From Flavobacteriaceae bacterium (GTDB taxonomy: Bacteria; Bacteroidota; Bacteroidia; Flavobacteriales; Flavobacteriaceae), in the NCBI GenBank assembly GCA_027065775.1, contig JAMONN010000007.1, positions 1 through 58,104 of the forward strand: 58,104 nucleotides of DNA. Reading direction: 5' to 3'. A program made the position numbers and the translations under genes. The notes under the pieces are model-generated. The model was not told the origin of the DNA and did no database searches. It saw only the letters and a program-made list of their open reading frames with translations. Below are positions 20,757 to 23,579 of the stretch, piece after piece. Each line of letters starts with the position of its first letter. Within the stretch, counting starts at the first letter, position 1.

Positions 20757-20841
20757 CCATATTATCCGATAATATGGTAAAGTAAATCCCATAATATCCG
20801 ATAATATGGTAAAGTAAATCCCATAATATCTGATAATATGG
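20757..20841 (+). repeat. three tandem palindromes, 32-bp spacing (putative operator array)
   Basis: Three 21-bp palindromes start at 20757, 20789 and 20821. Copy 1 is CCATATTATC-C-GATAATATGG, perfect around a single central base; copies 2 and 3 read CCATAATATC on the left and have one mismatched pair. The 11-bp linker TAAAGTAAATC is repeated between them. The 32-bp period is about three helical turns, so the sites face the same side. The third copy lies over the -33 region of the ATPase promoter. Confidence 0.8.
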
Positions 20842-20852
20842 TAAAATAGTAT

Positions 20853-20860
20853 TATGTTTG
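20853..20860 (+). promoter_or_regulatory. AAA ATPase gene promoter -7 box
   Basis: TATGTTTG matches TAnnTTTG, 21 nt before the ATG at 20882 and 11 nt after the last palindrome. Confidence 0.6.
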
Positions 20861-20881
20861 CAATGAAAAAATTATAACACT

Positions 20882-22120
20882 ATGAAATTCAGATTTTTAT
20901 ATAAGTATTTAAAAAAGCATCTACAGCATAAAAATTATACCATAATTACAGGAGCGAGGCAAGTAGGAAAAACTTCATTATTAAAGCAATTATATTTTCA
21001 CTTATTAAGTGAAAATGAAGAGGCAGTATTACTTAATTTAGAAAATAAGGAGTTATTAAAATCGTTAAATAACGATGTGAAAACGGTTTTTAACCATGTA
21101 CAAATTGTTCCAAAAAAAATATTAGAAGGTGAAACTAAAAAAAGAATCTATTTATTAATTGATGAAATACAGTATTTAGATGATCCTTCAAATTTTTTAA
21201 AATTTTTGTATGATGAGTATGAATATAATGTAAAAGTTGTAGCGACAGGAAGCAGTGCGTTTTATATAGACACAAAATTTAATGACTCACTAGCTGGTAG
21301 AAAACGAATATTTCAATTATATCCGCTGTCATTTAACGAATTTTTAGTTTTTAAAAGACAAGAAAAAATAACATCAGAAATCACATATCAAGTTTCTGAA
21401 CCATCTTATGTGTCAGATTATGCAACAAATACTTATACTTTATTATTAGAATATCTTACTTATGGTGGTTATCCTGCGGTAGTTTTAGAAAAAGATAAAG
21501 AAGAAAAGAAATGGTTGTTAAACGAATTAAAAAACTCTTATCTAAGGCGCGATATTATAGAGTCTGGTGTTGATAAAGAGAATAAATTTTTAATGCTAGT
21601 TCAAATTTTATCGGATCAAATAGGTAATTTAGTAAACAGTAAAGAATTAGGTAATACATTAGGTTTAGATCATAAAACAGTAAAAAGATATTTATATATT
21701 TTAGAAAAATGTTTTCATATAGATTTGATAAAACCATTTTATAGAAATTTAAGAAAAGAACTTACCAAAATGCCAAAAGTCTACTTTAATGATATTGGTT
21801 TGCGCAATGCTATTTTAGGTAAATTCGACAACCCTATGAATAGAATAGACAAAGGTGCTTTGTTAGAGAACTTTGTTTATAATCAATTACGAATAAAACA
21901 TAATCAATCTCAAAATTTAGGTATAAAATATTGGCGAACAGCAGACGGCAATGAAGTAGATTTTGTTATTGAAGAAAGCTTTAACACAGGTTACGCTTTA
22001 GAAGTAAAATGGAATTGCAAACAATTTAAACCTACTAAATATAAAAAATTTAGAACTGCGTATCCAAATTATGAACTAAACTGTTTAGATTCTAAAAATA
22101 TAGAAATACTAACTTATTAA
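20882..22120 (+). CDS. AAA ATPase with DUF4143 domain
   Basis: The 412-residue protein has an N-terminal P-loop ATPase: Walker A GARQVGKTS (24-32), Walker B LLIDEIQ (91-97) and a sensor-like VVATGSSAFYI. A winged-helix-like middle (SKELGNTLGLDHKTVKRYL) and a C-terminal DUF4143 domain follow. The C-terminus carries GNEVDFVIEE and ALEVKWN, an Asp...GluxLys pattern like the PD-(D/E)XK nuclease fold. The biological role of these ATPases, which are frequent and patchily distributed in Bacteroidota, is unsettled. The gene stands alone behind three tandem palindromes and ends in a hairpin repeat. Confidence 0.9.
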   Translation: MKFRFLYKYLKKHLQHKNYTIITGARQVGKTSLLKQLYFHLLSENEEAVLLNLENKELLKSLNNDVKTVFNHVQIVPKKILEGETKKRIYLLIDEIQYLDDPSNFLKFLYDEYEYNVKVVATGSSAFYIDTKFNDSLAGRKRIFQLYPLSFNEFLVFKRQEKITSEITYQVSEPSYVSDYATNTYTLLLEYLTYGGYPAVVLEKDKEEKKWLLNELKNSYLRRDIIESGVDKENKFLMLVQILSDQIGNLVNSKELGNTLGLDHKTVKRYLYILEKCFHIDLIKPFYRNLRKELTKMPKVYFNDIGLRNAILGKFDNPMNRIDKGALLENFVYNQLRIKHNQSQNLGIKYWRTADGNEVDFVIEESFNTGYALEVKWNCKQFKPTKYKKFRTAYPNYELNCLDSKNIEILTY

Positions 22121-22124
22121 AATT

Positions 22125-22182
22125 GTAAAGACGTTTTGCAAGAGTAAAAAGTAAAGAGGTTTTGGTAAAACGTCTTTACTTT
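22125..22182. terminator. GTAAAGACGTTTT hairpin repeat, copy 1 (with an extra half copy)
   Basis: A full inverted repeat, AGTAAAGAGGTTTT / AAAACGTCTTTACT, lies at 22150-22180. It is preceded by an extra left half, GTAAAGACGTTTTGCAAG, at 22125-22142. It begins 4 nt after the ATPase stop and is T-rich on both sides, so it can end transcription. Related copies are at 33760-33788 and 46540-46570. Confidence 0.65.
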
Positions 22183-23189: not shown

Positions 23190-23579
23190 ATGTACAAACC
23201 AATTTCACAAGAAGAAGAAAGAATAGGTAAAGTCGTAGTCAATGCTGCTTATCAAGTTCATAAAGCATTAGGTCCTGGATTGTTGGAAAAAGTATATGAA
23301 GTTTGTTTTTGTCATATTTTACGAAAAGAAGGTTTTAATGTAAAACGACAACAATTTATCCCAATTGTATTTGATGATTTAGTTTTTGAAGAAGGTTTAA
23401 GGTTAGACGTTATGGTGAATGATTTAGTTATCTGTGAATTAAAAGCATTAGATAATGTCAATCCTGTATGGGAAGCACAATTATTAAGTCATTTAAAACT
23501 TACAGATAAAAGACTAGGTTTTTTGATAAACTTTAATGTACCATTGATAAAAAATGGAATTAAGAGAATGGTTTTCTAA
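23190..23579 (+). CDS. GxxExxY family protein
   Basis: The 129-residue protein carries the name-giving motif G30-LL-E33-KV-Y36 after a conserved N-terminal helix (GKVVVNAAYQVHKALGPG). Later residues RLDVMVNDLVICELKA (~71-86) give Asp73 and Glu83-x-Lys85, a PD-(D/E)XK-like nuclease pattern. The biological role of the family is unknown. The gene sits inside a pair of 16-bp inverted repeats belonging to the CTTTGTG/CACAAAG word family, and its upstream flank carries more such words. This looks like a small mobile cassette. Confidence 0.88.
   Translation: MYKPISQEEERIGKVVVNAAYQVHKALGPGLLEKVYEVCFCHILRKEGFNVKRQQFIPIVFDDLVFEEGLRLDVMVNDLVICELKALDNVNPVWEAQLLSHLKLTDKRLGFLINFNVPLIKNGIKRMVF

Follow-up and report, generated by a model that had tools for sequence, protein, structure and literature searches.

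A helically phased palindrome array before an AAA_14/DUF4143 ATPase-nuclease gene as its probable self-bound operator

Three 21-bp palindromes with the consensus CCATAWTATCYGATAATATGG separate a gldA-like gene from a gene encoding a 412-aa AAA_14/DUF4143 protein in the window (the whole stretch of 58,104 nucleotides of Flavobacteriaceae DNA that was analysed; Table 1). The strict 32-bp period ascribed to these palindromes in the first-pass annotation is exact (start-to-start distances of 32 and 32 bp), and the motif is not expected by chance (0.00 occurrences expected from shuffled versions of the window). Palindromes occurring throughout the genome without linkage to the gene would have spoken against a specific role, and a search of the 2.77 Mb of the genome allowing up to 3 mismatches returned the three sites of the array only. 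The last palindrome, which had been placed on the -33 region of a promoter, does cover the region where a -33 element is expected, with a putative Bacteroidota -7 element, TATGTTTG, located 22 bp past its centre. A repeated operator-like array is therefore found over what, judging from sequence and geometry, would be the gene's own promoter. The possibility that the array is an RNA element was rejected, since Rfam gave sub-threshold chance matches only and the putative promoter comes after the array.

Table 1. Positions of the array, the putative promoter element and the ATPase-nuclease gene with its domains in the window
Feature	Position	Strand	Remarks
Palindrome 1 of the operator-like array, CCATATTATCCGATAATATGG	20757..20777		perfect, 10+1+10
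Palindrome 2 of the operator-like array, CCATAATATCCGATAATATGG	20789..20809		9/10 pairs
Palindrome 3 of the operator-like array, CCATAATATCTGATAATATGG	20821..20841		9/10 pairs; covers the region where -33 is expected
Putative Bacteroidota -7 promoter element, TATGTTTG	20853..20860	+	deduced from sequence and geometry
AAA_14/DUF4143 ATPase-nuclease gene, 412 aa, PADLOC PDC-S01	20882..22120	+	Pfam and PADLOC profile matches
AAA+ P-loop domain, about residues 1-155	20882..21346	+	GARQxGK, DEIQ and GSSA fully or almost fully conserved
Winged-helix domain, about residues 231-284	21572..21733	+	AlphaFold model and fold match
Recognition helix, N-terminus and body, residues 263-276	21668..21709	+	residues 263, 265 (and 269) covary with half-site bases
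C-terminal PD-(D/E)XK nuclease-like domain, about residues 285-412	21734..22117	+	E329, E358/D360, E374-x-K376

The encoded protein matched the Pfam families AAA_14 (PF13173; E 7e-31, 107.3 bits against a cut-off of 27) and DUF4143 (PF13635; E 9e-41, 139.7 bits against a cut-off of 28.1), and over residues 2-408 the PADLOC profile PDLC04789 (PDC-S01; E 1.6e-101), which is also matched by distant homologues that carry an array, one of them on a Treponema plasmid. A sequence search against solved structures gave no convincing match. The AlphaFold model (pLDDT 91.5) was over residues 1-313 most similar to PABY2304 (2qen, Z 17.6) and SSO1545 (2fna, Z 17.4), followed by NLR resistosomes, CED-4 and Cdc6/Orc1. 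The succession of nucleotide-binding, helical and winged-helix domains that typifies STAND/NLR-type ATPases is present (RPP1, WRR4A and CED-4 at Z 14-16). Nevertheless, we did not file the protein as STAND because it ends in a nuclease domain and lacks the C-terminal repeat sensor region of these ATPases.

For the C-terminal domain alone, the structural matches included Can1, Card1, Can2, McrC, EcoRV and TnsA (Z 5.5-7.0 upon VIA realignment), and almost all of the best 20 matches were PD-(D/E)XK nucleases, at moderate Z; Foldseek with this domain alone gave no match under E 0.001. Among 47 homologues the Walker motifs, E329, E358 and D360 are invariant and E374 and K376 nearly so. The evidence, moderate but consistent, points to a PD-(D/E)XK nuclease fold with its acid/lysine motif, and we refer to the protein as a predicted nuclease. 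The P-loop, the winged helix and the PD-(D/E)XK pattern that had been recognized at first reading are in line with the model, the fold matches and the conserved residues.

A scan of a genome collection yielded 52 relatives (36-78% identical), mostly from Bacteroidota and further from Peregrinibacteria, Neomarinimicrobiota, Kiritimatiellae, Sumerlaeota and others. The upstream regions of 50 homologues (36-78% identical) were compared together with that of the window (n=51), an alignment in which the same palindrome and period were to be looked for according to the first-pass annotation. Both were indeed recovered. The exact core ATCNGAT is present in 39 of the 51 upstream regions, with 71 sites in total versus 4.2 +/- 2.0 in dinucleotide shuffles, at a density of 4.8 per kb as compared to 0.37 per kb in the remainder of these loci. 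Among the 32 spacings between adjacent cores, 24 are exactly 32 bp, three are 33 bp and one is 31 bp. The outer half-sites vary by lineage (e.g. TCCTAAA, TTCCAAA, CTTAAAA, AATGAAA and TACATAA, with CCCATA in the window). The longest array (L093:2650-2960) consists of about nine degenerate copies in strict 32-bp register. The core is absent from the most distant of the 51 upstream regions, for instance those of Geobacteraceae, WOR-3 and Omnitrophota, and counting it loosely (2 mismatches, 60 genomes) gave mostly AT-rich noise. The distance from the last palindrome to the putative -7 element is not constant among the genes (3 to about 54 bp in most cases), and control may therefore not work in the same way for all of them.

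We also searched for periodicity without the use of any motif, by taking the best 22-bp stretch that is repeated at a given lag (at least 18 matches) within 200 bp upstream of the start codon, for 168 DUF4143 genes (44 close, 44 middle, with proteins ~31-38% identical, and 80 distant). A repeat at 32 or 33 bp was found in 52 of the 168 genes, which are related, so that the counts do not represent independent events. A lag of 32 bp occurred in 24 of the 44 close, 16 of the 44 middle and six of the 80 distant genes, against about 0.01 per lag in shuffles; the 390 control upstream regions, taken from unrelated genes of the loci sampled, gave a lag of 32 in none and of 33 in one. The array ends at most ~100 bp from the start codon in 50 of the 52 cases. 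Other lags that were found (22-23, 42-46, 53-54, 64-66 and 76) are each near a whole number of helical turns. At the strict threshold, the 32-bp repeat is absent in more than half of the sampled DUF4143 genes and in the majority of the distant ones. The same period was found with unrelated repeat sequences in several loci, like L033 (ATATCGCGATAT, three times), L016, L037, L201 and others, and copies on plasmids or phage contigs show it as well (lag 32 in Treponema, lag 33 in Bacteroides, a weaker lag 32 in a faecal phage contig and lag 22 in Rhizobium). Across the family, the 32-bp phase is kept while the motif diverges. A period of 22 bp, two helical turns instead of three, was observed for the DUF4143 gene on a plasmid of Rhizobium acidisoli (L234:1200-1440, array ACTTCTAATTATCA) and for some distant Bacteroidota copies (L029, L160).

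The genome from which the window derives contains eight DUF4143 genes, and another genome contains 14. At least four of the eight are preceded by 32-bp arrays, and these have four different sequences; the array therefore appears to be the private address of each copy. The paralogues L003, L006 and L008 of this genome have private 32-bp arrays of unrelated sequence. In a candidate bacterium (L128) and a WOR-3 MAG (L131) several DUF4143-type genes were found side by side.

Another observation concerned the borders of the conserved DNA. The similarity between the window and four loci outside its lineage (L091 from Flavobacteriales, L092 labelled Cyclobacteriaceae, and L093 and L094 from Bacteroidetes/Bacteroidales MAGs) starts at the array, between 20753 and 20817, and breaks off at the stop codon, between 22091 and 22122. 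With the homology bounded by the array and the gene end, array and gene together constitute one horizontally moving unit. In the relative G001, gldA is directly followed by kdsA (~50 bp between them); in G005 an orthologous ATPase gene lies just upstream of kdsA, on a contig that ends before the upstream side of the ATPase gene. No neighbouring gene is conserved in the close group, except in five Pedobacter loci that share one (vertical) site. The first-pass annotation had proposed an undescribed defence or mobile system. No transposition function was found, nor were there insertion ends or further mobility genes at the unit, and the system is not wholly undescribed, as its protein family is already the PADLOC candidate PDC-S01. 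Relatives in viral contigs were found with neither of two queries.

Two candidates for traces of insertion were rejected. The gldA-like gene of the window encodes 230 aa and was not truncated, since gldA is intact in all genus relatives at 229-230 aa. The inverted repeat that follows the gene (22125-22179, GTAAAGACGTTTTGCAA...AAAACGTCTTTAC) is not an end of the unit, since it is a dispersed intergenic repeat with ~45 matches per strand genome-wide (up to 2 mismatches). Copies of this repeat often occur as head-to-head pairs and are REP- or terminator-like. A small PDDEXK_3 gene (PF13366, GxxExxY-type) is located at 23190-23579, just downstream of kdsA.

An AAA+ winged-helix protein beside helically phased repeats is also what characterizes plasmid iterons and Orc1-Cdc6 origin boxes. 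The protein could accordingly be an ORC/Cdc6-like initiator of a selfish element, with the repeats as site of replication or mobilisation and the overlap with the promoter as secondary autoregulation. The resemblance of the AAA+ and winged-helix domains to Cdc6/Orc1, the likeness of adjacent phased 22- or 32-bp repeats to iterons, the presence of homologues on plasmids and the movement of array and gene as a unit are all compatible with such a role. We nevertheless consider it improbable, as multiple chromosomal origins fit poorly with genomes that have eight and 14 DUF4143 genes, several of them with different arrays, and as nearly all arrays are found over the promoter, at most 100 bp from the start codon. 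Moreover, the unit holds a single gene flanked by housekeeping genes, without insertion ends, other mobility genes or any sign of a replicon.

To relate the arrays to the protein, the half-site profile was compared with each protein column for 39 close genes, with overall divergence regressed out. For the outer half-site, the top two of 305 variable columns were D263 and K265, located where the recognition helix of the winged helix begins; D263 ranked first in most settings (site definition, redundancy) and K265 stayed among the first seven. The inner half-site bases did not place 263 and 265 high and favoured R269 instead, one helical turn on. All 10 genes with a CC outer half-site have D263 and CC never occurs without it, with four D263 genes lacking CC. 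R265 is found only in L105 and L106, which belong to different branches and both have a TACA half-site. The CC half-site requires only two changes on the tree, a number at which a phylogenetic pair test is powerless, and enrichment over the whole winged helix, as opposed to single columns, was not significant. Almost no fresh close homologues for a check of the covariation were present in 395 genomes of the phylum and 396 of the order. Taken together, the transfer as a unit, the uniqueness of the motif in the genome and the covariation with residues 263 and 265 support self-binding indirectly, and this suggests that the ATPase-nuclease reads its palindromes itself.

The same observations bear on the idea that an unlinked host regulator binds the array and that the ATPase gene is a mere target. 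The position at the promoter would suit any repressor, but the motif is found nowhere else in the genome, accompanies the gene in different phyla, differs between paralogues of one genome and covaries with the recognition helix of the gene's own product, and a host regulator is for these reasons very improbable.

In our view, the three palindromes are probably an operator array that is bound by the ATPase-nuclease encoded right behind it and through which this protein would regulate its own expression, a reading based on the comparison of sequences and on the structural model. A pair of winged helices would contact each palindrome, and the three-turn spacing would let oligomerised subunits line up along the same face of the DNA, one site after the next. 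With the -33 region occupied, transcription of a potentially toxic nuclease would stay low, and a change of ATP state or a signal from an invader could lead to release of the protein, upon which expression would go up and the nuclease would be freed. A role of the candidate ATPase-nuclease in anti-phage defence is plausible on the basis of its classification by PADLOC.

The protein might also bind the array to activate its promoter, in the fashion of MalT-like ATPases, and not to repress it. In line with this, the ATPase domain of the mycobacterial activator IniR was predicted to be SSO1545-like and such ATPases can be transcription regulators (PMC5760070); arrays moreover reach far upstream in some genes, as in L093. 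The overlap of the last palindrome of the window with the expected -33 region and the simpler need to keep a nuclease down, neither of which is decisive, make activation quite unlikely to our judgement.

A bolder extension of the proposed autoregulation, for which we see an outside chance, is that the array serves as a scaffold on which an ATP-dependent oligomer is templated by the DNA, resembling ORC or a resistosome assembled on its own promoter. Occupancy of the helically phased self-array would then be the sensor, phages that alter or titrate DNA would cause the release of active nuclease, and this might apply to the whole PDC-S01 family, with a private DNA address for each copy.

An array that moves with the gene, keeps its phase, changes its sequence and covaries with two residues of the recognition helix provides a direct handle on mechanism, with DNA specificity, binding as an oligomer and autoregulation as its predictions. 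If the proposed self-binding is true, an NLR/ORC-type ATPase-nuclease would be the regulator of its own promoter. No description of a phased array with diversified motifs that is read by the ATPase-nuclease itself was found in the literature searched, which excluded preprints; of 5.39 million papers, one names DUF4143 and one PF13635/PF13173, and neither deals with regulation.

The protein family and its candidacy as a defence system are already known; the array is the new part. According to excerpts of PMC12988326, PDC-S01 is a candidate for phage defence that is reported to rank fourth among the defences of prokaryotes by frequency, and most candidates of this kind still await validation; the source cited there is Payne et al. 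2024 (bioRxiv 10.1101/2024.01.29.577857). The window gene and PDC-S01 share the protein family, the combination of ATPase and PD-(D/E)XK domains and the single-gene organization, whereas a cis-element like the phased upstream array is not mentioned for PDC-S01 in these excerpts. The archaeal AAA+ ATPases SSO1545 and PABY2304 (2fna, 2qen) are similar as the best structural match, yet the nuclease domain lies outside that match. Control of defence genes by HTH proteins has been described for the WYL repressors BrxR/CapW and CapR of BREX and CBASS (PMC12255303), which unlike the ATPase-nuclease are encoded by separate regulator genes. RptR, a repressor encoded in the operon that it controls, acts on the promoter of a restriction-modification defence island by binding three repeated palindromes (PMC12255303), an example of such palindromes serving a repressor as its own operator. 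The array of the window is alike in its three repeated palindromes over the putative promoter of a defence candidate. RptR, however, is small, serves as a dedicated repressor and has 6-bp sites within 9-bp repeats, whereas the proposed binder in the window is the effector-like ATPase-nuclease itself, with sites of about 21-25 bp that are 32 bp apart.
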